Source of the DNA: a virus
IMG/VR virus record: IMGVR_UViG_3300042937_000130
Coordinates: 1 to 34,274 of that record
Reading direction: 5' to 3' (one strand)
Length of the DNA stretch: 34,274 nucleotides
The position numbers and the translations under genes are program-made. Positions 3,046 through 28,342 of this stretch are shown here, piece by piece. The notes beneath the pieces are model-generated. The model did no database searches. It saw only the letters and a program-made list of their open reading frames with translations, and had not been told where the DNA came from. Each line of letters begins with the position of its first letter. Within the stretch, counting starts at the first letter, position 1.

Positions 3046-3056
3046 GGCGTTCTCCT

Positions 3057-3069
3057 TATAGACTCTAGA
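3057..3069 (-). promoter_or_regulatory. palindromic element upstream of DNA polymerase
   Basis: TATAGACTCTAGA on the plus strand (minus: TCTAGAGTCTATA). It lies directly 5' of the AAGGAG ribosome site of the DNA polymerase gene, and the stop codon of the upstream HTH gene falls inside it. It is a candidate operator or phage RNA polymerase promoter. Confidence 0.7.
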
Positions 3070-3406
3070 CTTCGTCCGCTTTCGTGATTCCCTTCGATGC
3101 CCAGTATGCGGCAATCTTCTTCAGGGCCATGTCGTGGATGCGCTTTGCCTCATCTCCGCTGATGCCCGGTTCGTCAGGATACTTGCGATTGAAGAAAGTT
3201 GCAAGTTCCTCCCAACTGCCCGGTTCCTCCCCTGCCTTGAGGTTACGGACGCGGGTCGGTCGGCTCGTGTATCCATACCGAATGACGGTGGAGACCAATT
3301 GTGGGCTGATCCCGTACTTCTGAGCAATGTCAACCTTCTTCATGGTTGTCTTGGCCAGAGCCTGAATCTCGGTGACCTGCTGATCAGTTAGTTTTCTCTC
3401 GCGCAT
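3065..3406 (-). CDS. small helix-turn-helix DNA-binding protein (113 aa)
   Basis: Residues 6-46 (from LTDQQVTEIQALA through KVDIAQKYGISPQLVSTVIR) match a homeodomain-like helix-turn-helix as seen in resolvase C-termini and phage regulators, with the turn at KYGIS. The C-terminal half is charged and helical, with no catalytic motif visible. The start overlaps the preceding 63-residue gene by 23 bases. The stop codon lies inside the palindromic element in front of DNA polymerase. It is the only clear sequence-specific DNA-binding domain without an obvious enzymatic role in the window, so it is a candidate to bind that palindrome. That link is inference from context only. It could instead be a nuclease accessory protein. 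Confidence 0.75.
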   Translation of the reverse strand: MRERKLTDQQVTEIQALAKTTMKKVDIAQKYGISPQLVSTVIRYGYTSRPTRVRNLKAGEEPGSWEELATFFNRKYPDEPGISGDEAKRIHDMALKKIAAYWASKGITKADEV

Positions 3407-7617: not shown

Positions 7618-7630
7618 GTGAGTTCTCCTG

Positions 7631-7643
7631 TCTAGACTCTGTA
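7631..7643 (-). promoter_or_regulatory. palindromic element upstream of SSB gene
   Basis: TCTAGACTCTGTA on the plus strand, one half-site diverged. It fills the 27-base gap between the RNA polymerase stop and the AGGAGA ribosome site of the SSB gene. Same family as the other elements in this window. Confidence 0.62.
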
Positions 7644-7644
7644 C

Positions 7645-10038
7645 TCAGTTGAAGTAGTAGTCAGAGTCCCTAACCTTTGAAACGTCCAGAGAACCGTACT
7701 CTGGAACTTCAGGCAGACTAGCAGAAGAAGGGAGCATTGTCAAGACCCCCTGACGGAATTCTTGGAGCAGATCACGAGAAAATATGTCAATAGTTGCCTC
7801 GCGGACGCAAGAAGAGGTCTTCATGTAGTCGCCAGAGAGGCAAAGGATCTGATCGTGGACGCAGCCAAGGTGGTTGATGCCATTAGAAGCGCACATATTG
7901 ATCGTGTGGCCAAGAAGTCCACCAAATCCGTCAAGAGAGTGGATGTAATTTGCAGGACCACCGTTCAGAGCCTTACGCTTGCTCTGCTTTCCGTTCTCTT
8001 GACGCAAAGAAAGCACCTTTGCCTTGGCCCCGATGCGCGTGGAGACCGTGATCACATCGTAATTCTCGTAGCGCATACGCACGGGGAAGCCAATGGGAGT
8101 CATCCAATGGGGAGTGACATCGTTGTCAATAAGCACAGCCATGCATCCACGGATGAAATCCATGCCACGCTTGGCCGAGCCAACGACATCGTCGATGGAT
8201 TCCCAGATGATTTTGCCAAGGAAGGCCACGGGCTTGTAGGTCTCCAGCCCAAAGGGATTCTCCCCAGTCTTTCGCATCTTGTCCTCCAGCCACTCGCGGG
8301 TGTAGCCCATGCAGGAGTGCAGGGTCAGCCCGTAGGGCAGGGTCATGGTCTGACGCTTGGTCGTGGTCCGGTCTACACCAAACTTCAAAATATCTGAAGC
8401 AATAGGATCAGGAGAGTTGATTAGCCGCTTGATGACCTCGTTGGCCACGAACTGGTATGGATCAGAGGGCGCAGCCGAGGGGATGACGTTGGTAGCCAAG
8501 GCTCCCACAGGGTCACGCAGCAGCATGGAGTAGATCTGCAAGCCCTGCGTGGTGGCATCCATGGAGATTGGGAGGCTGCTGATGAAGCCCTTGCCATGGT
8601 CCCACAGTCCATTGATCTCACGACAAGCGGCCACGAATGCAAACGGCTCATCAGCCTTTAGCCACTCACGAGTAGACCAAGGATCTTGAGCGGTCTGGAC
8701 GATCAGGTTGCGGTTCTCTTCCACCCACTTGACACGTTCCTTGAGCGGCTTCTTGTCAAGCCCAAACTTGTTAGCCACCTGTAGGTACAGGGGAAACTGG
8801 TCGGCATCGGTGTTCAGCGGCTTGCCATTGGCAAAGCGAAGCATGGCCTTGGCATACGACACACCCTGAGGATGGAGGAACAGGGGAAGCGGGTAGCCAC
8901 GACCACGGAAGTCCAACTGGTGTGGGAACCAGAGGAATTTGTGCTCATGCATCTTGTCTGCAATGAACAGCGACTTGAGAGTCAGAAGCCGTTGAGACTC
9001 ATAGGACTCGTTGAGGAAGTGGATCTTAGCAGCAGCCTTGCGCCAAGATCGTCGAGCCTCCTCGTTCGTGTCGATGTCTGTCGGCTTGGTAGGAAGTTCC
9101 TCGTCACGAGATGGGGGAAGGCCGTCAATCGCCAGCCCTTCCTTCCAGCATTCCTTGACGAGGTCCATGGTCTGGATATCGACAGTCCATGGGGTGTTCT
9201 GCACGAAGTTCACAGCCGAGTACACGGCAGGTGACATGGTTGATGATAGCGATTCCTGATACGCCTTGGAGCGGCTCTTCACTAGCGGTCGAGGCTTCCA
9301 CTCCAACGAGGCATATCCGCCCACCCACGGGTTATTCCACTCCAGAGGCTTCTCAATGGTGGGCAGGAACATCGGCTCAAGAGTCTCGTGGTATTCGTGG
9401 CAGTCCTTGATCCACTTGCGGATGTCCTTGGACGGCTGAATGACGCAGTAGCGGCGACCCCGGGCATTCAACTTGGTGATGATGTCGATGATTCCGGTAC
9501 GAGTAGCAACCATCTCGACAAGCAGGAGGCCCACCGCAAGCGCATCAGCCTTGGCCCACCGCTGCGTCACCAGATCCACAGCCTTGGCAGCGTCACGGGC
9601 AAACCTGCGCTTGAACTTCTGGCCCACACTCTTGAACGTCTTCTTCTGAACCTGTCGAAGGAAGTCCGGGTTGTTGTCAGCAAGGTCAGCCAACAGCACC
9701 TCATCCTCAATGGCACGGCCAACAGCAACACAAGTGCCCGTAAGCATTCGCTCCTGCGACAAGGCATCGATGATCACCTTGGAGGCAATGACTGCGATCT
9801 TCTCGGGAGTCAGTTGCTGCATGAAGGGAAGACACCGATGCCTACGTCCGGGCCCGGTCGATGACTTGGCAATCCAAGATTCGATCTCGGCTACCAGTTC
9901 GGTGGTGCAGCGGTTCAGCATCATCCGCCCGGGGATGGTGTTGCTTTCGGCGGCGATACGGTGGGCCTTTTCGGTGCGATTCTGATATCGCTGCCGACCC
10001 AGTTCAACCATTTCCTTGTCGAGTTTGCTTTGGCGCAT
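7645..10038 (-). CDS. single-subunit DNA-directed RNA polymerase (T7 gp1-like)
   Basis: A 797-residue T7-type polymerase that would transcribe middle and late phage genes. Catalytic landmarks: ISMDATTQGLQ (D494, equal to T7 D537), VDRTTTKRQTMTLPYG (R557, K561, Y569, equal to T7 R627, K631, Y639) and CVHDQI (H728, D729, equal to T7 D812). The DFRGRGYPLP segment (376-385) and the aromatic C-terminus (DYYFN) also fit. It is shorter than T7 gp1 (883 aa). The ATG has no visible Shine-Dalgarno, unlike its neighbours. Directly upstream are a palindromic element, an extended -10 sequence and an intrinsic terminator, so expression appears to be set separately from the early genes before it. Confidence 0.96.
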   Translation of the reverse strand: MRQSKLDKEMVELGRQRYQNRTEKAHRIAAESNTIPGRMMLNRCTTELVAEIESWIAKSSTGPGRRHRCLPFMQQLTPEKIAVIASKVIIDALSQERMLTGTCVAVGRAIEDEVLLADLADNNPDFLRQVQKKTFKSVGQKFKRRFARDAAKAVDLVTQRWAKADALAVGLLLVEMVATRTGIIDIITKLNARGRRYCVIQPSKDIRKWIKDCHEYHETLEPMFLPTIEKPLEWNNPWVGGYASLEWKPRPLVKSRSKAYQESLSSTMSPAVYSAVNFVQNTPWTVDIQTMDLVKECWKEGLAIDGLPPSRDEELPTKPTDIDTNEEARRSWRKAAAKIHFLNESYESQRLLTLKSLFIADKMHEHKFLWFPHQLDFRGRGYPLPLFLHPQGVSYAKAMLRFANGKPLNTDADQFPLYLQVANKFGLDKKPLKERVKWVEENRNLIVQTAQDPWSTREWLKADEPFAFVAACREINGLWDHGKGFISSLPISMDATTQGLQIYSMLLRDPVGALATNVIPSAAPSDPYQFVANEVIKRLINSPDPIASDILKFGVDRTTTKRQTMTLPYGLTLHSCMGYTREWLEDKMRKTGENPFGLETYKPVAFLGKIIWESIDDVVGSAKRGMDFIRGCMAVLIDNDVTPHWMTPIGFPVRMRYENYDVITVSTRIGAKAKVLSLRQENGKQSKRKALNGGPANYIHSLDGFGGLLGHTINMCASNGINHLGCVHDQILCLSGDYMKTSSCVREATIDIFSRDLLQEFRQGVLTMLPSSASLPEVPEYGSLDVSKVRDSDYYFN

Positions 10039-10043
10039 ATTGG

Positions 10044-10056
10044 TATAGAGTCTAGA
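10044..10056 (-). promoter_or_regulatory. palindromic element upstream of RNA polymerase gene
   Basis: TATAGAGTCTAGA on the plus strand (minus: TCTAGACTCTATA), five bases before the RNA polymerase ATG. It overlaps the expected transcription start of the extended -10 promoter at 10061-10069, a position where a bound protein would block initiation. Confidence 0.68.
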
Positions 10057-10060
10057 CTAA

Positions 10061-10069
10061 ATTATAGCA
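10061..10069 (-). promoter_or_regulatory. candidate extended -10 host promoter for RNA polymerase gene
   Basis: The minus strand reads TGCTATAAT, a perfect TGN-TATAAT extended -10 box. No convincing -35 is seen, because the T-tract of the terminator occupies that place; extended -10 promoters can work without one. The predicted start is near 10054, inside the palindromic element, and would give a leader of only about 16 bases. Confidence 0.5.
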
Positions 10070-10071
10070 CC

Positions 10072-10110
10072 AAAAAAACAAACCCCCTGTATCCCAAAGG
10101 ATACAAGGGG
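10072..10110 (-). terminator. intrinsic terminator between DUF932 gene and RNA polymerase gene
   Basis: On the minus strand: stem CCCC-T-TGTATCC paired with GGATACA-GGGG (one bulged base), loop of 4, followed by TTTGTTTTTTT. This is a classical rho-independent terminator. It would stop host transcription coming from the early genes before it reaches the phage RNA polymerase gene, unless read through. Confidence 0.88.
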
Positions 10111-10155: not shown

Positions 10156-10884
10156 TCAGGCGTTGGCGTAGTGGGCCGACAAAGCCTTCTCAAATCCGAG
10201 AACTCGCTGCGGTCGCTCGACCGGGTTGAGGGTCTTGGCCAGATGGGTGTATGCCGCGTGGAGATTCCACAGGCACAGATCCGGGGTCTGGTAGTCGAAG
10301 GACGGCTTGACACACTCCTCGTAGAAGTCGATGACCTGAGGCTTGTGCAGCAGACCCTTGCGACCAAGGTCCACGGCAAAGGAGGCCAGTTGCTCCGTGC
10401 TCGTGTTGACCTTCTTGAGATCCTCGTAGAACTCGTTGGCCTTGTTGACTTGGTAGCCAAAGGCAGCCACGGCATCGTCGATCATTTTCGGAAGACGATC
10501 CCACACATGGGCTGTGTGCTTAGTGCGAAGAACGTGATCAGCGACAATCACGCCGTTGGTGCAGACATACACCGTGCCGCCAAAGATGATCCGATTGGCG
10601 ATGGTCTTGTTGTAACTGTTCATCATGGCAACAGTCCACTTCATGCGACCATCGTTCGGAAGATCCGGCCCATAAACATCGATCTTGCTGATGAAGATCG
10701 GATGCTTGCGGTGGACCATGTGGGTCTCGTTGTTGAGCGTGTAACCCCGAAACTCAAAGCGGTCGCAAGCCTCCTTGAAGAAACTTGCCTGATCCACAGG
10801 GGTGTACGAGTCGGTGCGCTCCGGGAGCGGGATGCTCTTGATGTCGGCCAGAGTACGGTAGGTAGTGCGAATGCGAGTAGCCAT
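10156..10884 (-). CDS. DUF932-family early protein (242 aa)
   Basis: Resembles the DUF932 / phage-plasmid-like protein family. The pattern ACDRFEFRGYTLNNETHMVHRKHPIF (residues 39-64) and especially NSYNKTIANRIIFGGTVYVCTNG (88-110) match the family's core, in which a small-residue strand precedes a conserved CTNG/CSNG turn. Homologues occur on phages and plasmids, and their biochemical function is not established. Here it is the last gene of the early block. It lies between a palindromic element and a strong terminator, so it would be transcribed by host polymerase soon after entry. The ribosome site is weak (GGAAAGAGAG). Confidence 0.75.
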   Translation of the reverse strand: MATRIRTTYRTLADIKSIPLPERTDSYTPVDQASFFKEACDRFEFRGYTLNNETHMVHRKHPIFISKIDVYGPDLPNDGRMKWTVAMMNSYNKTIANRIIFGGTVYVCTNGVIVADHVLRTKHTAHVWDRLPKMIDDAVAAFGYQVNKANEFYEDLKKVNTSTEQLASFAVDLGRKGLLHKPQVIDFYEECVKPSFDYQTPDLCLWNLHAAYTHLAKTLNPVERPQRVLGFEKALSAHYANA

Positions 10885-10901: not shown

Positions 10902-10918
10902 GGTCTAGTGTCTAGACC
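10902..10918 (-). promoter_or_regulatory. palindromic element upstream of DUF932 gene
   Basis: GGTCTAGTGTCTAGACC, an imperfect 17-bp palindrome identical to the copy at 11990-12006 and the reverse complement of the one at 13542-13558. It contains the stop codon of the upstream 67-residue gene and lies 17 bases before the DUF932 start codon. Confidence 0.72.
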
Positions 10919-11471: not shown

Positions 11472-11966
11472 TCAGGACACCTTGGTGGTGATGCGCTCAA
11501 AGATGGCATCCATCACAGTCTCACGGAACTCAGAGTTGTTGACGAACTGCGTGACGATCTGCAGGGCCAACTGCTTGTGGTTGATGTGCTCGATGATCCT
11601 GTCGAAGTCGAGTTCCTCGGCAACGCGAGAGATGTCGAGGCACTTAGCCACTTCACGGATGCTCATGGCGTTGGCAACGTCATCGGTATCCACGTTGTCC
11701 GCGACATACTCCGCAAGGCTGCTCATGCAGAGGTGGTCAGCCACATCTGAGGTATCCATCTCTCTTGCAACGTCGCTTGCGGAGATCTCGGAGGCAACGC
11801 CCTCTGCAACGAGGGTCACGAACTCGTCGTCGTTGGCCAGTCGCTCGGCCACGGATCCGTTGGAGATGGCAGCGGTGGTGGGCAGGTCGGGCTGCGTGAT
11901 CTGCTCACGAACGGCAGCGGTGATGGAGTCGAGCGAAGACGGGGCGATGGTGACGATCAGTTCCAT
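11472..11966 (-). CDS. early protein with tandem nine-residue repeats (164 aa)
   Basis: I do not know this family. Residues 64-139 consist of about eight nine-residue units with the pattern x-x-(V/L/I)-A-x-x-(L/M/I)-(D/x)-x; the first is SDVAREMDT. The register is broken once by a four-residue insertion at 91-94. A further related unit (GSVAERLAN) is near residue 37. The N-terminus (MELIVTIAPSS) and C-terminus (EFRETVMDAIFERI) lie outside the array. The protein is acidic. It is expressed from its own promoter cassette: TTGACA-N16-TACTAT, a 5' hairpin, the palindromic element, then AAAGGA. A regular helical scaffold or protein-binding array would fit such repeats. Confidence 0.7.
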   Translation of the reverse strand: MELIVTIAPSSLDSITAAVREQITQPDLPTTAAISNGSVAERLANDDEFVTLVAEGVASEISASDVAREMDTSDVADHLCMSSLAEYVADNVDTDDVANAMSIREVAKCLDISRVAEELDFDRIIEHINHKQLALQIVTQFVNNSEFRETVMDAIFERITTKVS

Positions 11967-11989: not shown

Positions 11990-12006
11990 GGTCTAGTGTC
12001 TAGACC
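11990..12006 (-). promoter_or_regulatory. palindromic element upstream of nonapeptide-repeat gene
   Basis: GGTCTAGTGTCTAGACC, identical to the 10902-10918 copy. It lies between the 5' hairpin of the leader and the AAAGGA ribosome site, 23 bases before the ATG. Confidence 0.72.
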
Positions 12007-12013
12007 GGGTTGG

Positions 12014-12036
12014 TGTCGAGAGAACATCCCTCGACA
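12014..12036 (-). other. 5'-leader hairpin
   Basis: TGTCGAG and CTCGACA form a perfect 7-bp stem with a 9-base loop. It begins almost exactly at the expected transcription start of the promoter at 12042-12069, so it would sit at the 5' end of the message, a place where hairpins can protect RNA from decay. Confidence 0.5.
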
Positions 12037-12041
12037 AGTGA

Positions 12042-12069
12042 ATAGTACCAGAAGAAACGAATTTGTCAA
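12042..12069 (-). promoter_or_regulatory. sigma70-like promoter, TTGACA-N16-TACTAT
   Basis: -35 at 12064-12069 and -10 at 12042-12047 on the minus strand, followed by TCACTTGT, which is also found after the -10 of the promoter at 13595-13622. The -35 is immediately next to, and overlaps, the end of the upstream gene. It drives the nonapeptide-repeat gene. Confidence 0.8.
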
Positions 12070-12353
12070 CGGCTCTCAATAGCCTTCTTCACATTCGGTC
12101 GGCTGCAGACAGACTGCTTCATGCGTTCAGCAATCTCATCGAAGTTGTTCTCCATGAATTGGTCAAGCCACTTGGGCCTGTTGTCTCCGTACATCCACAC
12201 GCGCTCACCGTTGGTAGTCAGACGGGTAGCCTTGATGAGGGTCGAGTCAACACCGACAAACTCTGCACCCTCGTAGACATCCTTGCACTCATAGGCGAGA
12301 GTCACGAAGACTTCGCGATGGTCAAAGATGAGGTCGATTGCGAACCGGGTCAT
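12066..12353 (-). CDS. early hypothetical protein (95 aa)
   Basis: Unrecognised. The N-terminal part (RFAIDLIFDHREVFVTLAYE, residues 3-22) looks like two beta strands and the C-terminal part (KWLDQFMENNFDEIAERMKQ) is helical, suggesting a small alpha/beta fold. It is coupled to the gene before it by an ATGA overlap and has AAGGAG upstream, so it is almost certainly translated. There are no catalytic motifs. It probably shares a transcript with the 112-residue gene. Confidence 0.65.
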   Translation of the reverse strand: MTRFAIDLIFDHREVFVTLAYECKDVYEGAEFVGVDSTLIKATRLTTNGERVWMYGDNRPKWLDQFMENNFDEIAERMKQSVCSRPNVKKAIESR

Positions 12354-12688
12354 GCGTTCTCCTTGTTGAAAGTGATGTCTTCAAAGGTCTTGATCAGCGT
12401 CTTCGACCATTGTGCCCGGGTCTTGCGGGTTGCATTGGTCTTGAGCCCGATGAATGGAACCATGTCATCCACGGTGAAGGGCATGGCATTAAAAGTCCTA
12501 AAAGTCCCGAGAAGTCTGCGGTCTGTTTCCAGTCGAAATGCAAACTCCTTGATGTTCTTGGCGGTGATGTGGTCGATGCCGACAATCATGGTGGCCCAGA
12601 TCATGGCCTCGCAGGTGGAGGTCATGTTGTCGTTGGCATCCCAACACGCACGCTGATGACATTCGGTGATGTTCCAAGTAAGTGCCAT
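12350..12688 (-). CDS. early hypothetical protein (112 aa)
   Basis: The start was placed at MALTWNITEC, which has AAGGAAA eight bases upstream. The frame is open 15 codons further but those read through the palindromic element. The protein contains several histidines and cysteines (C10, H11, C15, C26) in the first 30 residues, a hydrophobic helix at about 27-38 (EAMIWATMIVG) and a basic middle. No family recognised. It is translationally coupled to the following 95-residue gene. A palindromic element stands directly in front, but no TTGACA-type promoter does. Confidence 0.62.
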   Translation of the reverse strand: MALTWNITECHQRACWDANDNMTSTCEAMIWATMIVGIDHITAKNIKEFAFRLETDRRLLGTFRTFNAMPFTVDDMVPFIGLKTNATRKTRAQWSKTLIKTFEDITFNKENA

Positions 12689-12706
12689 TGTGAAGTTTCC
12701 TTTCGG

Positions 12707-12719
12707 TATAGAGTCTAGA
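12707..12719 (-). promoter_or_regulatory. palindromic element upstream of 112-residue early gene
   Basis: TATAGAGTCTAGA on the plus strand (minus: TCTAGACTCTATA), the same 13-mer as in front of RNA polymerase and inside the gp16-like gene. It fills the gap between the stop of the upstream gene at 12721 and the ribosome site. Confidence 0.7.
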
Positions 12720-12720
12720 A

Positions 12721-13521
12721 TCAAGAGTTCCACACGAACACACTATTGAGGTTGATGTTGCCCTTGGCCTTGAGGCCGATGACATAGCCGCCCTTGGGGT
12801 CGAGGAACCGGGCATCGTTCTCGTCACCGTTGATGACACGAGCACCCATGCACCGCTCGGGCAGATCCTTGCGGAACACTACGGCCACGTTGCCACCTGC
12901 GTTGAGGTACTGGATGCACTGGTCGTGGTTGTGCCCGGAGTAGGACAGGGTCAGGTGTAGCGGAGCAAGCATGAGCCCACGCTTCCGAGAGTCCATGGCC
13001 CGAGCGAATGACTTGGTGTAGTCATAGTTGTTGGCACAGAACTCGTAGATCTGCGGGGCAACGTGTTCCCACGGAATGTCCGAGAGCACATTGGAGCGGA
13101 ACGCGAAGCCGTCATGGCCGTGCTTCCTGCGGGCTGCATCCAGTTCCTTGTACAGTTGGCGGAAGAACGTCTGCGGATCGGCCATCAGGTACACGGTCTT
13201 GGCGATGCGGGCAGCCCGGACATTGGAGAACTTGGATCGCCCTGCAGTCACGCCAAGGCAAGCAGCCTCACACTCAGGGCTACGCCACGGGCAGAGTTGG
13301 TAGCCCGAGGAACCTGCAGGAGCCAAGGTCAGGCCGTAGATGGGCACGGAACCCTTGGCCAACTTGGTGTTTGCCCCGGGAGGAGTCAGGATCTTGCGAT
13401 CCCGTCCGCTGAAGGGCGTCTGATACAGGAAGCCACGGAACGCAGCAGCAGCGGCTTCACGAATGGCATCCCACTTGGGAGCCTTGGCCTCGTTGTTGAG
13501 GACGTTGAGAGGAGTAGTCAC
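12721..13521 (-). CDS. early cysteine-motif protein, possibly Gp88-like (266 aa)
   Basis: The start is a GTG with AAGGAAA upstream. The striking region is residues 62-95: a hydrophobic strand, GLTLAPAGSSG, then C77, C84 and C88 in the pattern CPWRSPECEAACLGVTAGR. This cysteine cluster followed by an aromatic/basic helix is reminiscent of the phage Gp88/DUF-type proteins with a conserved CPxxxxxC motif, whose function is not established. A metal site is plausible. The downstream part contains DIPWEHV and a SYSGHNHDQC segment that could add ligands. The gene has its own promoter cassette and so is expressed early by host polymerase. Confidence 0.6.
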   Translation of the reverse strand: MTTPLNVLNNEAKAPKWDAIREAAAAAFRGFLYQTPFSGRDRKILTPPGANTKLAKGSVPIYGLTLAPAGSSGYQLCPWRSPECEAACLGVTAGRSKFSNVRAARIAKTVYLMADPQTFFRQLYKELDAARRKHGHDGFAFRSNVLSDIPWEHVAPQIYEFCANNYDYTKSFARAMDSRKRGLMLAPLHLTLSYSGHNHDQCIQYLNAGGNVAVVFRKDLPERCMGARVINGDENDARFLDPKGGYVIGLKAKGNINLNSVFVWNS

Positions 13522-13541
13522 GGTCGTTTCCTTTCGAGTTT

Positions 13542-13558
13542 GGTCTAGACACTAGACC
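13542..13558 (-). promoter_or_regulatory. palindromic element upstream of cysteine-motif gene
   Basis: GGTCTAGACACTAGACC, the reverse complement of the copies at 10902 and 11990, so its asymmetry is flipped relative to transcription. It lies 20 bases before the GTG start. Confidence 0.72.
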
Positions 13559-13571
13559 GGATTGGAGAGAG

Positions 13572-13586
13572 GGGACACGATGTCCC
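13572..13586 (-). other. 5'-leader hairpin
   Basis: GGGACA-CGA-TGTCCC is a perfect 6-bp inverted repeat with a 3-base loop. It starts about three bases after the expected start point of the promoter at 13595-13622, as in the other early cassettes. Confidence 0.5.
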
Positions 13587-13594
13587 ACAAGTGA

Positions 13595-13622
13595 ATAATA
13601 TCCTGCAATCAGGACTTGTCAA
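13595..13622 (-). promoter_or_regulatory. sigma70-like promoter, TTGACA-N16-TATTAT
   Basis: -35 at 13617-13622 and -10 at 13595-13600 on the minus strand, followed by TCACTTGT. The -35 is part of the last codons of the two-TM membrane protein gene. It drives the cysteine-motif gene. Confidence 0.82.
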
Positions 13623-13815
13623 CAGGTGGTTGAATTTGATGGAAGATGACGAAGCAGATGTAGGCCATGGCCCAGAGAAGAACAACCGATGGAAGCATGA
13701 ACCAGTCAAAGCGACCTGCAAGTGATTGCTCAACTGCCGACACCGTGACGGTCAAGGAGAGAAAGATGAACGACAAGGTGAGGACGTAGCGGACGATGGT
13801 GTAGATGAGTGTCAT
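13609..13815 (-). CDS. early membrane protein with two predicted TM segments (68 aa)
   Basis: Two hydrophobic stretches are visible: about residues 4-27 (IYTIVRYVLTLSFIFLSLTVTV) and about 39-59 (FMLPSVVLLWAMAYICFVIF), joined by a short loop with an acidic and a basic residue. The C-terminus is short and polar. AAGGA lies eight bases before the ATG and a palindromic element just upstream. The early position suggests a host-modifying or superinfection role rather than lysis. That is inference; no family is recognised. Confidence 0.66.
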   Translation of the reverse strand: MTLIYTIVRYVLTLSFIFLSLTVTVSAVEQSLAGRFDWFMLPSVVLLWAMAYICFVIFHQIQPPVDKS

Positions 13816-13828
13816 TTCTAGGTTCCTT

Positions 13829-13841
13829 TCTAGAGTCTAGA
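13829..13841 (-). promoter_or_regulatory. palindromic element upstream of membrane protein gene
   Basis: TCTAGAGTCTAGA, a perfect 13-bp palindrome around one central base. It lies between the stop of the 132-residue gene and the AAGGA ribosome site, 13 bases from the ATG. Confidence 0.74.
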
Positions 13842-13842
13842 A

Positions 13843-14241
13843 TTACTTAGTATCGACGAGCGACAGACGCTTAGTAACTGCGGCCATGCAGCGGTTGAAG
13901 TCCTTGCCAGTATCCTCAAGCATCCCCTGAGCGTGTTCGTGAGTTTGCCAGTTATTGGAATAAATGGAATCGATCTCGCGGCTGTAGAGGAGGAGGCCAC
14001 GGTCGATGATGGGCTTGTTGATCCACAGGCGGCGAAGGTGCTCGTTGATCTCACAGTCGCGTTCCATTGAGGACATGAGCGCACTAGCGGCCTTGTCGAG
14101 GAGGGCAGCCAGAGCCATGTCCTCATCGTTCTGGTCGCAGGGCAGCAGGTCAGGGCAGTCATCCCACGAGTCACGCAGGGCGTTTGCCTCAGCACGAAGC
14201 CGGGTGTTCAGGTCGAGGATTTCAGTCGGGGTCAGGTTCAT
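13843..14241 (-). CDS. first early gene, hypothetical protein (132 aa)
   Basis: Unrecognised, mainly helical and acidic. The N-terminal helix carries EILDLNTRLRAEANALRDSWDD (residues 7-28) and is followed by CPDLLPCDQNDEDMA with two cysteines, then a helix rich in alanine and leucine, then a longer charged C-terminal region. AAAGGA lies before the ATG. It is the first gene after the AT-rich intergenic region, and its leader has the full cassette of promoter, hairpin and palindrome. First genes of T7-like early regions often encode host-takeover proteins, but nothing in the sequence identifies this one. Confidence 0.65.
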   Translation of the reverse strand: MNLTPTEILDLNTRLRAEANALRDSWDDCPDLLPCDQNDEDMALAALLDKAASALMSSMERDCEINEHLRRLWINKPIIDRGLLLYSREIDSIYSNNWQTHEHAQGMLEDTGKDFNRCMAAVTKRLSLVDTK

Positions 14242-14260
14242 GGCATTCCTTTCGATTCGG

Positions 14261-14273
14261 TCTAGACTCTAGA
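14261..14273 (-). promoter_or_regulatory. palindromic element upstream of first early gene
   Basis: TCTAGACTCTAGA, a perfect 13-bp palindrome, between the leader hairpin and the AAAGGA ribosome site of the 132-residue gene. Confidence 0.74.
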
Positions 14274-14274
14274 A

Positions 14275-14293
14275 CTCCCTCACGTTGAGAGAG
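14275..14293 (-). other. 5'-leader hairpin
   Basis: CTCCCTCA-CGT-TGAGAGAG forms an 8-bp stem with one non-Watson-Crick pair and a 3-base loop, about 12 bases after the expected start of the promoter at 14312-14339. It corresponds to the hairpins at 12014 and 13572. Confidence 0.45.
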
Positions 14294-14311
14294 AACTAGG
14301 TCCACATCTGA

Positions 14312-14339
14312 ATACTACCACAGATACCCAAGTTGTCAA
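14312..14339 (-). promoter_or_regulatory. sigma70-like promoter, TTGACA-N16-TAGTAT
   Basis: -35 at 14334-14339 and -10 at 14312-14317 on the minus strand, with the same 16-base spacing and a TCA after the -10 as in the other early promoters. First host-type promoter of the early block. Confidence 0.78.
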
Positions 14340-14494
14340 TGGTATCTAATTGGTCTACACAATGGTCTACTTGCTATAGTACCTAAGGTATATACCTAAG
14401 TTACCTAGTACTAGTCTTATATCTTATACCTGTATCTAGATCTATATTAGATACATATATAAGGACTATGGGTGGACTAAAGGTTATACCTAAG
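14340..14494. other. AT-rich intergenic region with short palindromes
   Basis: This stretch is far richer in A and T than its surroundings and dense in CTAG and TATA steps. It includes the perfect palindromes GGTATATACC and CTAGTACTAG and several copies of ACCTAAG or TATACCTAAG. I see no convincing ORF. Such a segment upstream of early promoters could be an origin-like or promoter-enhancing region. It could also lie near the genome end, because late genes are upstream and early genes downstream. Confidence 0.5.
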
Positions 14495-14507
14495 TATAGA
14501 CTCTAGA
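14495..14507. repeat. palindromic element beside AT-rich region
   Basis: TATAGACTCTAGA, same family. This copy is not next to a start codon; it lies between the AT-rich region and the 60-base-spaced direct repeats. Confidence 0.66.
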
Positions 14508-14529
14508 ATGGATTGCGGTCGAGGCAGAA

Positions 14530-14626
14530 TGAAGTCGTCGAGGCGTTGACCGTTGATGATAGCGAAATCCATTCCTGTGGATGTCTTGCTGAAGTGGTCG
14601 AACCGTTGACCGTTGGTGATAGTGAA
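14530..14626. repeat. two diverged direct repeats, 60 bp apart
   Basis: The segments 14530-14566 and 14590-14626 share most of about 37 positions, including the identical core CGTTGACCGTT. They start exactly 60 bases apart. Because 60 is a multiple of three, they also appear as peptide repeats in overlapping short ORFs on both strands (62 aa minus, 77 aa plus with a TTG start). Neither ORF has a ribosome site. This may be an iteron-like or terminal-region repeat. Confidence 0.5.
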
Positions 14627-14645
14627 TGGCCAAAAAATCGGGGCC

Positions 14646-14703
14646 AAAAAAAATTGGTGGCCGCCCGGGTGAGTCTAGACTCTATACCCAAGCGGCCACC
14701 AAT
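14646..14703 (-). terminator. strong intrinsic terminator with palindromic element in its loop
   Basis: A 12-bp perfect stem (14692-14703 with 14653-14664, ATTGGTGGCCGC / GCGGCCACCAAT) is followed on the minus strand by eight T residues (14646-14653). The 27-base loop contains a copy of the palindromic element. It would end transcripts coming from the alanine-rich gene and the late region before the early region. Confidence 0.82.
14674..14686. repeat. palindromic element inside terminator loop
   Basis: TCTAGACTCTATA on the plus strand, in the centre of the loop of the 12-bp-stem terminator. Confidence 0.68.
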
Positions 14704-14708
14704 GGAAA

Positions 14709-14739
14709 GCCCCGGCCCCGCACTAGGCGGAACCGGGGC
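14709..14739 (-). terminator. GC-rich hairpin downstream of alanine-rich gene
   Basis: GCCCCGG and CCGGGGC form a perfect 7-bp stem around a 17-base loop. On the minus strand it is followed by only TTT, so it is a weak terminator or a processing hairpin. It lies 57 bases after the gene's stop and just before the stronger terminator. Confidence 0.45.
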
Positions 14740-14796
14740 AGGTTAGGCGGGCTCATTCAAACACGAGCCAGAGGATGAAGTCTGCAAGGATCCAGT

Positions 14797-15522
14797 TCAA
14801 GCCTTGCCTCCCTTCGCTTCGGCCATGGCTTCGGCTTCCTGCCGCTTCGCTTCCATGGCTTCGGCCTTCGATGCGGCCTTCGCGAGGAGAGAGGCAGCGG
14901 CGAGCCCGTCATCCTTCGTGATCTTCATGGCAAACTTGTACAGGCGATCAATCATCACGGCTTCCGATTCGGGCTCTTCACCTGCGCCCCCCTTCGCGGC
15001 CTTGCGGCAGGCATCGAGCGTAGGCTTGGCCTCTTCGTCCCCATCCTGAGCGGCATCGGCCATTTCGCGGATCTTGGCGGGCTCCCCCTTCGATGCGCTG
15101 GCGATGGCGCGGAGGCCTTCCATCGGGAACCGGGCAGCGCGTTCCGTGCCGATGGCCGCAGTGGCGTTCCCGATATCCTTCAGGTAGTACACGGTGGCCT
15201 TCGCCAGACCTGCGCCCATGAGCGTATTGACGACCCATGCCGCGAGGCTCTTGCCGTACGCCCGGGGCAGGCCCAGTGCGTTCGCTTCGGCGATTGCCAC
15301 GGCGGCCTCTCGTGCTCCACCTTCAACGGCGGTGGCCTTCGCGATCACGTTCGCTTCGGCGGCCTTCTGTTCCACGTTGAGGGTAACGATGCCTTCGGCC
15401 TTCGCTTCGGCCTTGCTCATGCCCTCAGGTGCTTGGACGGCCTCAGGCTTCGGCGTGCCTTTCTTGGCCTTCGGCATGGCGGGGGCGGCGGTGGCGGTCT
15501 CGATGTTGATGATACGGGCCAT
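14797..15522 (-). CDS. alanine/glutamate/lysine-rich hypothetical protein (241 aa)
   Basis: Start at MARIINIET, which has GAAAGGA nine bases upstream; another ATG three codons earlier lies on top of that ribosome site. Residues 10-90 and 185-241 are low-complexity A/K/E/P sequence. The middle (about 90-150, LGLPRAYGKSLAAWVVNTLMGAGLAK...) is more ordered and looks helical. Codon use favours TTCGC/GGCC-type codons and is more GC-rich than neighbouring genes, suggesting separate ancestry. It is isolated between two non-coding gaps and closed by a terminator. No family recognised. A DNA- or head-associated protein is possible from composition, but unproven. Confidence 0.65.
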   Translation of the reverse strand: MARIINIETATAAPAMPKAKKGTPKPEAVQAPEGMSKAEAKAEGIVTLNVEQKAAEANVIAKATAVEGGAREAAVAIAEANALGLPRAYGKSLAAWVVNTLMGAGLAKATVYYLKDIGNATAAIGTERAARFPMEGLRAIASASKGEPAKIREMADAAQDGDEEAKPTLDACRKAAKGGAGEEPESEAVMIDRLYKFAMKITKDDGLAAASLLAKAASKAEAMEAKRQEAEAMAEAKGGKA

Positions 15523-15969
15523 TGTCTGCATCCTTTCGATGCGCCTTTGGTTCGACCACCGTTCGCAACGTGCGTCCGTGTGGCCGTTCCTTCAGGCGCA
15601 CACATTGTCGCACAATTCCGGGAATGTGCAAGGCCTTTCGAGAAACTTTCTCAGTTTAATTCTGGCTTTCTCTCAGAGACAACGAAACGGGGAGGGAGAG
15701 GCACACGGTCTAGACTCTAGACCCACCCCGCCCACCCCATCGGTTAGCCATTGAATAAGCCAAGGTTGCCCATTGGCAATGCATTGGCTGTCACACGCGG
15801 GCCGCAACAGGCCACCCCTATGGGGGGACGCGGGCCACGAAAATCTTATTAAACCCTTTCAGATTTTTTTTCCAAAACTAAAAGGCATCCGTATCTGCCA
15901 AGTGGGATTCCCATCACCCACATTGCCGATCATCGGCATCCTCGGGAGGTTGGATCATTGGCAGACGGC
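15523..15969. other. non-coding gap upstream of alanine-rich gene
   Basis: No ORF with a ribosome site is visible. The gap holds a perfect 17-bp copy of the palindromic element (15707-15723), the palindrome GAGAAACTTTCTC (15640-15652), an imperfect palindrome GCACAATTCCGGGAATGTGC (15610-15629), CCCC-TAT-GGGG near 15817, two copies of a GCGGGCC motif in 15797-15837, and a T-tract near 15865. A weak -35/-10 pair (TTGCAC-N16-GACAAT, minus strand) brackets the imperfect palindrome. Late genes end on one side, so a physical genome end here is possible. Confidence 0.5.
15707..15723. repeat. palindromic element, perfect 17-bp copy
   Basis: GGTCTAGACTCTAGACC, the longest fully symmetric intergenic copy, about 185 bases upstream of the alanine-rich gene start. 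Confidence 0.74.
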
Positions 15970-16338
15970 CTAGGATGGCTCAGGATCGCGTCCAGCAGAC
16001 TGGATGGGCTTGGAGTCATCCTCGTCACCCGGATCGCTCTGGGGGCATTCTGGAGCCCTTCCTAGAAAGACCTGTTCAGTCAGGGCCGGGTTCTGGCGGA
16101 AGATCTGCATCAGGGAGACCTCAAGGGTACGGATCTTAGATTCCGATAAGCCCAAATCATGAATTTCAGACACCATCTCTAGAATTTCATGGAGTACTGT
16201 ACTAGAGTATATATAATCTTCTAGTTCTTCTGAGATACAGATCTTAGGAGTAGGAAAGAAGAAGAACTCTCCAAATTCATTCTTAGGCATCTTACAGGTT
16301 ACTAAAGGGATCTCATAAGGGAACCACTTAATAACCAT
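15970..16338 (-). CDS. degenerate HExxH-type phage protein (122 aa)
   Basis: The middle of the protein, STVLHEILEMVSEIHDLGLSESKIRTLE (about residues 46-73), has the layout of a common group of small phage proteins with LHExxH...GLGL(S/T)E..(V/I)R.LE...L...NP, which look like metallopeptidase relatives. Here HEILE replaces the HExxH zinc motif, so the second histidine is missing and activity is doubtful. The C-terminal 35 residues are acidic, proline-rich and probably disordered. The start has AGGAGA upstream. The N-terminal coding half is noticeably AT-rich. It follows the HNH gene at the end of the late region. Confidence 0.62.
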   Translation of the reverse strand: MVIKWFPYEIPLVTCKMPKNEFGEFFFFPTPKICISEELEDYIYSSTVLHEILEMVSEIHDLGLSESKIRTLEVSLMQIFRQNPALTEQVFLGRAPECPQSDPGDEDDSKPIQSAGRDPEPS

Positions 16339-16349
16339 GGAGATGTCTC

Positions 16350-16571
16350 CTAGTGCTTGGCTCGATTCACTGACTTAGGGACAATACGGAGATTGCTACG
16401 GCGGTTATCCCGAGGGTCGCCGTTCTTGTGGTCAACGTCCTTGCCATCGTGCTTCTTGACCCTGCCTTCACGGATCATCACCCGGCGCATCTTGTTGCGT
16501 GAAGCACGGTCCTTCTTGTACTCATCAGTACCGTGGTACTTGGCGTATTCCTTCTTGTAGTCTCGTGCCAT
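16350..16571 (-). CDS. small HNH endonuclease (73 aa)
   Basis: The C-terminal half contains KDVDHKNGDPRDNRRSNLRIV (residues 44-64), a clear HNH signature with D47-H48 and the NR..NLR block ending at N60. The N-terminus is short and basic (RDYKKEYAKYHG). HNH proteins beside terminase genes are common in tailed phages and in some cases assist DNA packaging. They can also be mobile homing nucleases. The start overlaps the stop of the 43-residue gene upstream as TAATG, so it looks like an integrated operon member rather than an inserted element. Confidence 0.85.
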   Translation of the reverse strand: MARDYKKEYAKYHGTDEYKKDRASRNKMRRVMIREGRVKKHDGKDVDHKNGDPRDNRRSNLRIVPKSVNRAKH

Positions 16572-16702
16572 TACTTCTTCCGGCTGATCTTCATCTTGTT
16601 ATAGGAAGCATTGGCAATGGCATAGGCATTATTAGCAGCCATGCCTCTCTTCTTCTCAAGGGAGTGGGCGATCTGCTTGACCTTGGACGGAATCTTAGCC
16701 AT
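16571..16702 (-). CDS. very small basic protein (43 aa)
   Basis: A short gene that reads MAKIPSKVKQIAHSLEKKRG and continues through an alanine/asparagine-rich helix to a basic KISRKK end. It has AGGA seven bases before the ATG and its TAA stop overlaps the HNH start as TAATG. Nothing else fills the 156-base gap between its neighbours, and codon use is coherent. Strongly basic and helical, so nucleic-acid binding is possible. No family recognised. Confidence 0.62.
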   Translation of the reverse strand: MAKIPSKVKQIAHSLEKKRGMAANNAYAIANASYNKMKISRKK

Positions 16703-16727
16703 GTGGTTCCTGAAAGTAGAAGTTAAA

Positions 16728-16967
16728 TTACCAAGCCCGACACGACCAGTAACGTGCCTTGGTCTTGGGACCGGGGTTATCGCAGTTGTGTCGAGCCCGG
16801 AAGTTCTTGCGGCGACCCGGTTCGTTCTTACGGATCTTCATATTGGGGTCGCCAAAGCGGACAATCTTGGTCTTGTCGCCATCCTTGACGCACACGGCGG
16901 ACTTCTTAGCCCCACCCGGAGTGCGCCACGGCTTGTTCATCGACCGTCCATCACAGGGATTAGCCAC
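16728..16967 (-). CDS. conserved phage small basic protein next to terminase (79 aa)
   Basis: Contains MNKPWRTPGGAKKSAVCV and the very characteristic FRARHNCDNPGPKTKARYWSC near the C-terminus (about residues 56-76), with two or more cysteines and a histidine that could bind zinc. I recognise this as a sequence repeatedly found in tailed-phage genomes near head and packaging genes, but its function is unknown to me. The start was placed at the GTG that overlaps the upstream stop and has TGGAG before it. The frame is open 10 codons further, and an internal ATG gives a 70-residue form. Confidence 0.78.
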   Translation of the reverse strand: MANPCDGRSMNKPWRTPGGAKKSAVCVKDGDKTKIVRFGDPNMKIRKNEPGRRKNFRARHNCDNPGPKTKARYWSCRAW

Positions 16968-17142
16968 GTTTAATCTCCAGAATTTCTTCAGGGACAACTT
17001 CCTTGAGTTCCCTCATGGCCCGGGCCAAGCCCTTGGCGGCAGGAAGGCTGTCCTTGCTCCTTAGATGGGCTTCATACTGCAAGATGGCATTGCAAGCCCG
17101 GTTCATAATCTCATTGGGCCACTCATCTAGATCGACATCCAT
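16960..17142 (-). CDS. small acidic hypothetical protein (60 aa)
   Basis: Unrecognised helical protein with an acidic N-terminus (MDVDLDEWPNEIMNRACNAI). The ATG lies inside the last codons of the large terminase gene and the stop overlaps the start of the next gene, so it belongs to a coupled series. T7 also has a small gene (19.5) after its large terminase, but no sequence relation is visible. Confidence 0.6.
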   Translation of the reverse strand: MDVDLDEWPNEIMNRACNAILQYEAHLRSKDSLPAAKGLARAMRELKEVVPEEILEIKRG

Positions 17143-26500: not shown

Positions 26501-28342
26501 GCCGCCAATGAAGGCTCGTTCAGCGGGCTTACGAAGATTGGCCACAACCTCAGGAGGAAGTGCCTTGGCCAATTCTTCCCAGAACACCTTGTTGAAGGCT
26601 CCTGCTCGGAACTTGGTGGCATCGGCACGAACAAGGGCTTCAGCAATCGTGGCAAAGACTCTCTCATCCAACTTCATGCCAGCAATGGAAAGTTCTTGAG
26701 CGGCGGCCTTAATAACTGAACGAACGCCCATAAGAGGCCCAACTTTTGCTCTTGCAGGGATTCGTCCAGCAGCGTCACGAACTTCTCTAGCGGCGACTTG
26801 ACCGCCCACTTCAGTAATTGGATTTCCAAAGTGGACTGAACCGTCCGACCACAATTCAACCGGATGCAGGCCAACACGCGGCTTTGTTTCAAAAGAAACA
26901 ACAGTTCGCTTTTCAAATCCTCCAGCATCTTTACCATCAAGATAACGAACACCAACCCGCTCTTCTCCAGACTTCATTTTAAGAAATTGAATTTGCTTCT
27001 TTGGACCGCCTTGGGTAGAAATCAAACTCAACTCACCAGCGGCGTTTGTGTCCACATATACGGTACGCCCTGATCGCTCCTTTAGACCGGAATCTCCGGG
27101 ATGCTCTGGACGGGCCGCCTTTGTGCGGGTAGTGGTTCCATCGGGATGCACTTCATAAACAGATCCCTTACTGGTCTTAAATGTCGTTACAGAGCCCTGC
27201 TGAACAGCCTCGGTTGTCGCACGTTCTGCAGTAGTTTCCGCAACTTGAGGGAGACTTACCGAACGGGTTCCCGGAATAAAAGGATCGATCCTAGGACCAG
27301 TGGTTCGCGACCAGTCAAGCCACAGGTCTGCCGCAACCTTTCGCGCCTCCTCCGACATGGATCCCGTGCCCATAGCAAACAGCATCTGATCTGCAGCCGC
27401 AGGGGAACTGAAAGCAAATCCCGGACTCCAGTTGATCTCATAGCCGCCGGGAAGCACGGTCTTCCGCATACGGGCCATCTCTTGTGCGGCCTCTTCAATA
27501 TGCTGCTTGACAAACATACGACCAAAGACAGCACCGCCAACGATTGCGCTGATGCCTCCAGACACCGTCAGATCAAACATGACCTGCTTTGCGGTGGGGT
27601 TGTAGGTAGGATCAATACCATTCTTGACCCCTTGGTAGACGGCCTCTTCTGCTATGCCAAGGGCCAGATACCGGGCTGCAAGGTTGGTACGGCTGATGGT
27701 GGCAGCACCTTGTGCGGCAGCAGCACCCAGTTCAGCGGTGTGGTATCGACCATAGGACTGTGCTGCAGCCCGTGCTGCAAGAGTCGTATCTGCACCGAGG
27801 CCAGCAATAGCCAGAGGCTCTGCAGCAATACCCATCAGGATCAAGCCGCTCAGATCCATGCCCATACCAGCCACCGCACCTGCAGTACCCGCCGCACCAA
27901 GCCGCGACTGAACCTCAGGCTTTGACGAGTTGACGTAGTTCAGGCGATCTCGGTACTCCTGAAAACTGCCAGCACCGAGCACATAGCCCCACTCATCAAA
28001 GTTCAGGTTGTTCAGATCCTGCTGTATAGAGTCTAGATTGTTCCCTGCACCAAAGGAATAGGGGTCACGAATAGGATCAAACTCAGCCCGCGTCCTGTTG
28101 AAGTTCAGGGGCTCATTGTATTCACCGGGATTGATGAACTTGTAAGCCTTGTCGTAGACAAACTGTGCCGCAGATCCAATAAGACTGTTTCGTGTTCCTA
28201 GCACAAAACTGGCGAACGGATCCTGAGACATATCCATGAAGTCTGGATTGATGTCAGGAAGTGCCTTCTCCCGCTGTGCTGCTTCATATTCCTCAGCAAT
28301 GGTGGGGCTGAAGATCGGAGTACCGAGAATTCCCTTAGCCAT
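23564..28342 (-). CDS. large internal virion protein (T7 gp16-like, 1592 aa)
   Basis: Very long protein in the position of T7 gp16 (1318 aa), the core protein ejected into the host to form part of the channel for DNA entry. The N-terminal 150 residues lack any clear transglycosylase signature such as the catalytic E in an ES-type motif. A hydrophobic segment at about 150-190 (AGTAGAVAGMGMDLSGLILMGIAAEPLAIAGLG) could contact the membrane. The C-terminal third (about 1050-1590) is helical and resembles the C-terminal part of gp16-type proteins. Residues about 385-535 look like an inserted module with different composition. A palindromic element lies in the coding sequence at residues 102-106. 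Start with AAAGGA. Confidence 0.85.
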   Translation of the reverse strand: MAKGILGTPIFSPTIAEEYEAAQREKALPDINPDFMDMSQDPFASFVLGTRNSLIGSAAQFVYDKAYKFINPGEYNEPLNFNRTRAEFDPIRDPYSFGAGNNLDSIQQDLNNLNFDEWGYVLGAGSFQEYRDRLNYVNSSKPEVQSRLGAAGTAGAVAGMGMDLSGLILMGIAAEPLAIAGLGADTTLAARAAAQSYGRYHTAELGAAAAQGAATISRTNLAARYLALGIAEEAVYQGVKNGIDPTYNPTAKQVMFDLTVSGGISAIVGGAVFGRMFVKQHIEEAAQEMARMRKTVLPGGYEINWSPGFAFSSPAAADQMLFAMGTGSMSEEARKVAADLWLDWSRTTGPRIDPFIPGTRSVSLPQVAETTAERATTEAVQQGSVTTFKTSKGSVYEVHPDGTTTRTKAARPEHPGDSGLKERSGRTVYVDTNAAGELSLISTQGGPKKQIQFLKMKSGEERVGVRYLDGKDAGGFEKRTVVSFETKPRVGLHPVELWSDGSVHFGNPITEVGGQVAAREVRDAAGRIPARAKVGPLMGVRSVIKAAAQELSIAGMKLDERVFATIAEALVRADATKFRAGAFNKVFWEELAKALPPEVVANLRKPAERAFIGGVDRTVMDVVQREDMVASVWHAFNTGRHQMAGTPNSLIFQVLQEIRDRGGKVNRQIVGEVIDELRSIRQAPPTRVNKRGATMVDFNARRARVIEIINKRSAGGKDIKIADSLLKRINATAGNVATAGAMEAARAAVGGLSKDASEIPRIHAWWERIPGLSNYLNQAALLMESENGWARMLGHVGFNARRAFENMPQPTTIMEAGNMVVSEMTYGFMRGYRNAYTRFALGKGVDNVSATPGLVDALRTSFGSENRAMRREFNKRVAAQLRSGLNNDAHEAVNEAAKGIRELFNKMHGIAHGVGLKGFTTSAVNNYFPRLWRFDRIRRLAETEAGKADLRNLIERALDLGGRKVVIDGVEQTFKGDLKEAARVFSERLIKIAKGTENAPLMEQDQELFDALDNLAGIIKGTGGSKTPFGRARTILDESASVATSADHLNHGSSAMSLADLTNDDLPMVFRKYTTSVMGAVNEKRLINAFNEEFKLRGILGPVKTVKGVEVQEAIEVNSINELFATIKTLGGAINSTHESGMREVIAALRYEPIHSGASTFGDKVLGVVLPYGYLTTGGQFGLAALGEVARIIGTVGIRNAVNQIPILTEMVGNWRNMDRPTQNFASFIDQWFSPSTDRMRRMFMDASGQPDEYASLPKRALTGAANLMADASGLAPITSWTQQLTAACSIQHLYDVGRGARRLDKATLSTLGLTVEKYDNLIKFVGANAELKDGFLGQRVIGLKRMDAIEVDDLKGFVDRMVRTRIQDIPTRGDFAKQAFGFWGRLATQFRSFNIKGIDNFLIQNATRVARGGAEGRAKVASEIAYTMLFAGTIQYLRNYADWSSLKAAGNDEKATKLEPTLGIGGFVKGSMSGPSEFWLATMTADFAWTRAVDPDPIFAPYRYSGLKWYGFPGEAMGTRAASVFGDVYGATVGAALDLGVKQELTTGTLHKFRLLTPAQNYPGLKQILNVTEQQIIDEFNLPTTQSRTRD
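28025..28037 (-). repeat. palindromic element inside gp16-like gene
   Basis: TATAGAGTCTAGA on the plus strand, identical to the copies in front of RNA polymerase and the 112-residue gene. It is read in frame as Leu-Asp-Ser-Ile about 310 bases after the start codon of the gp16-like gene. Confidence 0.6.

Follow-up and report, generated by a model that had tools for sequence, protein, structure and literature searches.

What reads the palindrome that sits inside a transcription terminator of a T7-like phage, and does its place within the hairpin matter? The hairpin occupies positions 14646-14703 (minus strand) of the window, by which we mean the whole stretch of 34,274 bases of the virus record analysed here. 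Its gene content is that of a T7-like podovirus, comprising a single-subunit RNA polymerase (797 aa, 7645-10038, minus strand), a primase-helicase, a T7-type SSB, a family A DNA polymerase, a T7-type terminase and a tail fibre, and all named genes are carried by the minus strand. Complete-looking relatives have a stretch with the portal, scaffold, capsid and tail tubular A genes that is missing from the window. The region 12000-17000 found no close DNA match in the phage collection, the nearest RNA polymerases of cultured phages are about 36% identical to that of the window, and a scan of genome contigs with the polymerase returned a single contig, from a MAG titled Proteobacteria.

Read 5' to 3' on the minus strand (14703-14646), the element consists of ATTGGTGGCCGC, a 27-base interior and GCGGCCACCAAT, followed by T; the tail (14646-14653) counts eight T in all, the first of which is paired within the stem. 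It thereby shows the GC-rich stem and subsequent T tract of an intrinsic terminator, and its predicted RNA fold reaches -37.5 kcal/mol (z -8.0), a value that none of 200 shuffles equalled. The 12-bp stem, the eight T residues and the palindrome in a 27-base loop described in the first-pass annotation are thus real, but the RNA stem extends to 18 pairs and leaves an apical part of 15 nt, which contains most of the palindrome. A strict-rule hairpin scan missed this terminator, which was shown by other folding analyses. Searching Rfam over the terminators gave one match, Scr3202 (E 0.016), below the gathering score and taken as chance. A second GC-rich hairpin with a weak T tail lies upstream (14709-14739, minus strand), and a 37-nt direct repeat, 86% identical (14530-14566 and 14590-14626), is found between the terminator and the predicted main early sigma-70 promoter (TTGACA-16-TAGTAT, 14312-14339, minus strand). 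As a terminator, the element is real and ordinary. It lies behind a gene (14797-15531, minus strand; 244 aa), the product of which is a probable palindrome-binding regulator, and it would end the transcription unit of that gene. The late/early boundary that had been placed at the terminator is not supported: this gene has a predicted sigma-70 promoter of its own, and the late cluster would appear to stop short of it.

Aligned copies define the repeat unit as a 17-bp palindrome, GGTCTAG-NNN-CTAGACC, with which the word noted at first, GAGTCTAGACTC, is out of register by half a repeat. GAGTCTAGACTC occurs exactly once in the window, and 26 times with at most three mismatches versus 12.7 expected, while TCTAGA is observed 22 times versus 5.1 expected. 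The 17-mer GGTCTAGNNNCTAGACC gave nine matches with at most three mismatches versus 0.4 in five first-order Markov shuffles, and looser rules yield 10 to 14 copies in the window. These are found mostly just 5' of early and middle genes, late genes being nearly devoid of them. Of 91 sites in seven genomes, 63 precede a gene start by at most 40 nt, as do 5.4% of random positions, and the other 28 have no called start that close. In four of the seven genomes the palindrome is the only 9-mer present in at least four intergenic stretches; in G004, G006 and G007, ribosome-binding-site words recur as intergenic 9-mers beside it.

In the window, all copies were placed on the minus strand. The operator-like copy in the terminator loop, GGTATAGAGTCTAGACT, spans 14672-14688, and the same 17 bases occur in L004. 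The regulator gene is flanked by copies, one of which, GGTCTAGAGTCTAGACC (15707-15723), lies 5' of the regulator promoter within a weaker hairpin-like stretch (15683-15741). Beyond the terminator follow ATTCTAGAGTCTATACT (14493-14509) and copies 17 nt 5' of gene 13843-14241 (14259-14275), 5' of gene 13609-13815 (13827-13843), 5' of the GP88-like gene 12721-13521 (13542-13558), 5' of the small gene next after it (12705-12721), 5' of gene 11472-11966 (11990-12006) and 5' of the DUF932 gene 10156-10884 (10902-10918). A terminator (10072-10110, minus strand) lies directly upstream of the RNA polymerase gene, and a palindrome copy (10042-10058) is found between a TATAAT (10061-10066) and the polymerase ATG. 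This order of terminator, promoter-like box, palindrome and ATG is kept in many relatives, with a TATAAT-like box just before the site in the window and in many of them. Further copies lie 5' of the SSB gene (AGTACAGAGTCTAGACA, 7629-7645) and of the DNA polymerase gene (AGTCTAGAGTCTATAAG, 3055-3071), and another within the latter gene (1583-1599), which also contains a copy in G001 and G002. A weak copy in a structural gene (28023-28039) has four mismatches and is possibly due to chance. Many of the site-bearing genes show no sigma-70 promoter of their own.

Among the relatives, the centre and spacer of the palindrome are phage-specific. An A-S-T centre is shared by the window, L007, L035 and L038; R-S-Y is found in L016 and L020, Y-S-R in L008, L033 and L039, TCA in L031, TTC/GAA in L006 and L032, G-W-C with TCTAA arms in L014, and GATC with a 4-nt spacer in L012, L026 and L036. 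At least nine versions are present in the comparison set, their labels being assigned by hand from site lists, such that several centres share one label in L053 and L055 (AST) and in L054 (GATC4). Most phages contain both orientations of their centre; the exception is G006, where the TCA sites all point one way (11 of 11), which is odd for a symmetric dimer. The closest comparison is provided by G006 and G007, which differ in version at all early and middle sites; at four sites with flanks about 90-94% identical, the site itself is switched from TAGTCACTA to TAGGATCCTA each time. G001 and G006 each contain, in the late region, one GATC-type site at odds with their own type. In G001 (10010), G006 (6456) and G007 (13651; all in transcription orientation), the tail tubular A gene behind the capsid terminator has a GATC-type palindrome across its start, and two of these three genomes use another version elsewhere.

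We then asked which protein follows the version of the site. Orthologues of the regulator share a single location, with the homologue of 15970-16338 ahead of them and a terminator behind. Over 22 rows, their identity separates the version pairs completely: the 28 same-version pairs are at least 41% identical and the 203 different-version pairs at most 36%. This corresponds to an AUC of 1.000, which none of 500 permutations reached, as compared with 0.80 for TerL on the same rows, which leave out L015 (no TerL of 300 or more residues) and L068 (no label yet); 12 control genes gave 0.66-0.84 on 13 to 25 rows. Before counting, identical sequences had been removed, as had L070, L101 and L109, which by eye showed no homology, and the regulator of L074 is doubtful, with an end branch of 2.96. 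With L068, L137 and L139 added for the tree comparison, the regulator tree needs eight version changes, the minimum for nine classes, and the TerL tree ten. G001 groups with G006 and G007 by TerL, and with the window by both regulator and site version. The palindrome had been read in the first-pass annotation as a regulatory site acting at the DNA level, and its genome-wide repeats, with versions that track a single phage gene, argue for that reading; it is probably the product of 14797-15531 that reads it. The regulator and many of the sites are neighbours, and the match is partly explained by linked inheritance because the gene adjoins them. The site switches within alike flanks in G006 and G007, whose regulators are 34-35% identical, speak against this, in one genome pair only.

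Two other candidates did not hold. The first candidate reader was a small HTH protein (3065-3406, minus strand) before the DNA polymerase, which was rejected with an AUC of 0.675 (n=13) and a nearly constant helix-turn-helix; this motif is conserved and the C-terminal part of the protein diverges. A CcrM/GANTC reading was dropped, as GANTC is formed by some centres only.

A search of Pfam and PHROG returned no family match for the regulator of the window, the best hit of any of 21 members having an E value of 0.025. A profile search of PDB sequences gave two weak matches, and tblastn with two regulators against cultured phages gave none at E≤1. The AlphaFold model is all helical, with a mean pLDDT of 83 and a core above 90, residues 1-50 being of low confidence. 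Its structural matches are weak: with VIA-align, ParB aligned with Z 5.3 over 96 residues and the DNA-binding domain of Noc with Z 4.9 over 92 of 105, followed by KorB (Z 3.0-3.2) and SopB (Z 3.1), while RuvB and clamp-loader domains rank above ParB. The model of a second regulator, of another version, again listed Noc (Z 4.7 over 87 of 105). Foldseek found no match at E≤0.001 and likewise none among viral models. We therefore regard the predicted fold as loosely resembling ParB, Noc, KorB and SopB, a lead rather than membership.

The predicted regulator promoter, TTGCAC-16-GACAAT (15604-15631, minus strand), was read by eye, and relatives have promoter-like pairs in the corresponding position. 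In most of 19 rows the regulator gene is preceded, at about 100 nt, by a sigma-70-like pair (for example TTGACA-17-TATAGT in L054); the promoter scan missed the pairs of the window, L004, L031, L033, L046, L053 and L059, which were read by eye. The presence of this pair suggests early expression by the host polymerase. TerL or the L078 regulator led to four more relatives (L068, L078, L137 and L139), which contain a regulator homologue and no set of CTAG palindromes, and have another palindrome on both sides of the regulator gene. This is ATCCCAAATTTGGGAT in L078 and also in L137, where the centre is changed after the gene, ATCCCGAATTCGGGAT-like in L139 and AGTCTCAGNNCTGAGACT in L068. In L093, a more distant phage, TCTGTAGCACTACAGA is repeated; it adjoins a gene in the corresponding place, the homology of which to the regulator was judged by eye only, and is also found on both sides of the terminator before the polymerase gene. 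Within 13077-15562 of L093, palindromes fall within coding frames, and four different proteins contain the SVALQ that they encode.

Taken together, we consider it likely that gene 14797-15531 of the phage encodes a DNA-binding regulator, probably a dimer, with about a dozen operators, the loop palindrome among them; it would repress early and middle genes in a stoperator-like manner. The regulator would be transcribed from its own sigma-70 promoter and, as a dimer, would bind the operators around its own gene as well as those shortly ahead of early and middle genes, among them the genes for RNA polymerase, SSB and DNA polymerase. Once bound, it may repress in either of two ways: it could cover a start region, as at the RNA polymerase gene, or halt elongation shortly ahead of a gene, the latter by analogy with cluster A repressors at stoperators (PMC9283540). 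The terminator would end the regulator transcript in the ordinary way, and the loop operator would represent local variation in a site that lies next to the hairpin in relatives.

The position of the site relative to the hairpin behind the regulator bears directly on an alternative raised in the first-pass annotation, in which the loop copy couples binding to termination; in such a scheme, the bound protein would stall the polymerase in the hairpin and set the read-through into the early region. The loop site is indeed identical at 17 of 17 bases in the window and L004 despite a changed stem, and a site lies beside the regulator terminator in most relatives. Of 28 rows, however, just 2 have the site within the hairpin (the window and L004, near relatives of a single lineage), whereas in 15 the site lies at most 7 nt 5' of the hairpin or overlaps its base and in 2 it is found only 3' of it; in the remaining rows, the script found no T-tailed hairpin adjoining a site. 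A separate hairpin scan placed the site 5' of the hairpin in L007 and L014 too. As only these two rows have a loop site, what is conserved is a site beside the terminator of the regulator, not one in its loop. Relatives keep the terminator and the site and not the loop arrangement, which comes near to the pattern, a stem and T tract kept with no loop site, that the annotation itself had named as contrary. Moreover, a hairpin with a T tract would need no helper. Coupling is therefore unlikely, and the place of the palindrome within the terminator is probably incidental, a by-product of site placement.

The palindromes could instead be promoters of the phage's own T7-like RNA polymerase, with the loop copy restarting transcription where it stops. 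In favour, they form the chief word recurring between genes, many genes have one 9-35 nt ahead of them, and some copies read CTATACC at the downstream end; LUZ100 also has a phage promoter before its polymerase gene (PMC10134795). Against this, the polymerases of G006 and G007 are 98-100% identical and their sites differ. The polymerase region with the specificity loop, which we take to be located as in T7, is nearly invariant across versions, 3- and 4-nt spacers included. Since near-identical polymerases coexist with different site versions, the polymerase was rejected as the reader. Nor is there a directional flank, the 5' information being near zero and the 3' weak and A-rich, in a test that chose sites by arm matches, so that arm symmetry there arises partly by selection. 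Together with the two centre orientations in most phages and the near absence of the palindrome from late genes, this makes promoter function quite improbable and contradicts the notion of a phage promoter placed inside a host terminator.

If the phage were plasmid-like, the sites could serve in partition or segregation and the protein could be a ParB, which would agree with the many copies and the loose ParB/Noc/KorB fold match. This is very unlikely, as an AAA_31 (ParA-type, PF13614) match was found in none of seven records, some of them incomplete, the regulator model has no N-terminal alpha/beta domain and the sites are located at gene starts. We give an even smaller chance to RNA hairpins acting in leaders for processing or translational control: arms of 7 bp around a loop of 3 or 4 nt, close upstream of ribosome sites, would suit such a role, but both complements of a centre (GAA/TTC, CGA/TCG, GGT/ACC) occur within one phage, so that the RNA loop differs, and TATACC variants break a pair. 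Slightest of all is the prospect that the palindromes are recombination seams spread by gene conversion with no cognate protein, for although sites are homogeneous within each phage and lie at gene-cassette borders, a match with the sequence type of one gene is not predicted.

The operators proposed here can be compared with three known systems. In the cluster A (L5-type) mycobacteriophages, a single phage repressor, a two-domain monomer, acts on a short sequence that recurs across the genome in promoters and in short gaps between genes; this stoperator is 13 bp long, asymmetric and oriented with transcription (PMC9283540). Window-type phages likewise carry many sites in promoters and intergenic gaps (the 63 of 91 near gene starts), but they differ in that the site is palindromic and mostly found in either orientation, with one-way G006 as the exception, and in that these T7-like phages yielded no integrase (PF00589) match in seven records, some of them incomplete. 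The O_B operator of KorB is a palindrome as well. KorB of plasmid RK2 is described as a CTPase clamp that serves long-range silencing (PMC11790492). The regulator resembles KorB/O_B in its dispersed operators, and the helical domain of its model aligns loosely and weakly with ParB, Noc, KorB and SopB, but this all-helical model has no CTPase-like N-terminal domain, its sequence gave no Pfam match, and a PF08535 search in G006 found none. In LUZ100, a MarR-like protein was proposed to control the phage RNA polymerase gene through binding sites by its promoter (PMC10134795). A regulator of the polymerase gene with sites by its promoter is also proposed here; unlike integrase-bearing LUZ100, our records gave the integrase result above, and they have about a dozen sites, not confined to the polymerase gene.

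In T7-like phages, control is familiar as the work of their own polymerase. What appears here is a second layer, a repressor-like network in which palindromic sites are paired with readers of the matching version, and it is this network behind the terminator, rather than the ordinary terminator itself, that is of interest. Our literature search found no description of this palindrome-regulator system. A gene without annotation gains a probable target sequence, and G006 and G007 offer a natural pair for the study of specificity. More tentatively, and with the balance somewhat against it, an undescribed and fast-diversifying regulator family may give integrase-less T7-like phages a genome-wide operator code, each type with its own palindrome and reader, that would serve as an immunity type, be it for superinfection control, for delay or for a carrier state. 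If true, an immunity-type network would occur in a group commonly considered strictly lytic.

The gap before the regulator gene showed further features. A box, TTTTGG-A8-TCTGAAAGGGTTTAAT (15848-15877), lies between the late genes and the regulator; similar boxes were seen by eye in all 19 rows inspected, and a stricter pattern was found once in six of seven genomes. We take it to resemble the T7 concatemer-junction ATCTGTT, and it is a possible genome end or packaging signal. Of the 33 contig ends from relatives that map between 15.95 and 12.28 kb, 15 cluster within about 440 bp in this gap, which fits a physical genome end, although assembly breaks at variable regions could also cause such a pile-up. 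A tRNA-Leu (CAA) gene occupies the gap in L033 (3235-3317), L037 (4504-4587) and L046 (3064-3146), and none was found when a tRNA gene was looked for there in L038 and L036. Finally, GCCCCTTGCGAGGGA before the capsid gene was rejected as a repeated late promoter, since it has a single exact copy in each of five of seven genomes and no repeats. GCCCCTTGCGAGGGANAAC occurs once before the capsid gene in five genomes (G001 8707, G006 5157, G007 12350, G004 7368 and G002 17580), and this conserved sequence is a candidate late promoter or RNA element.
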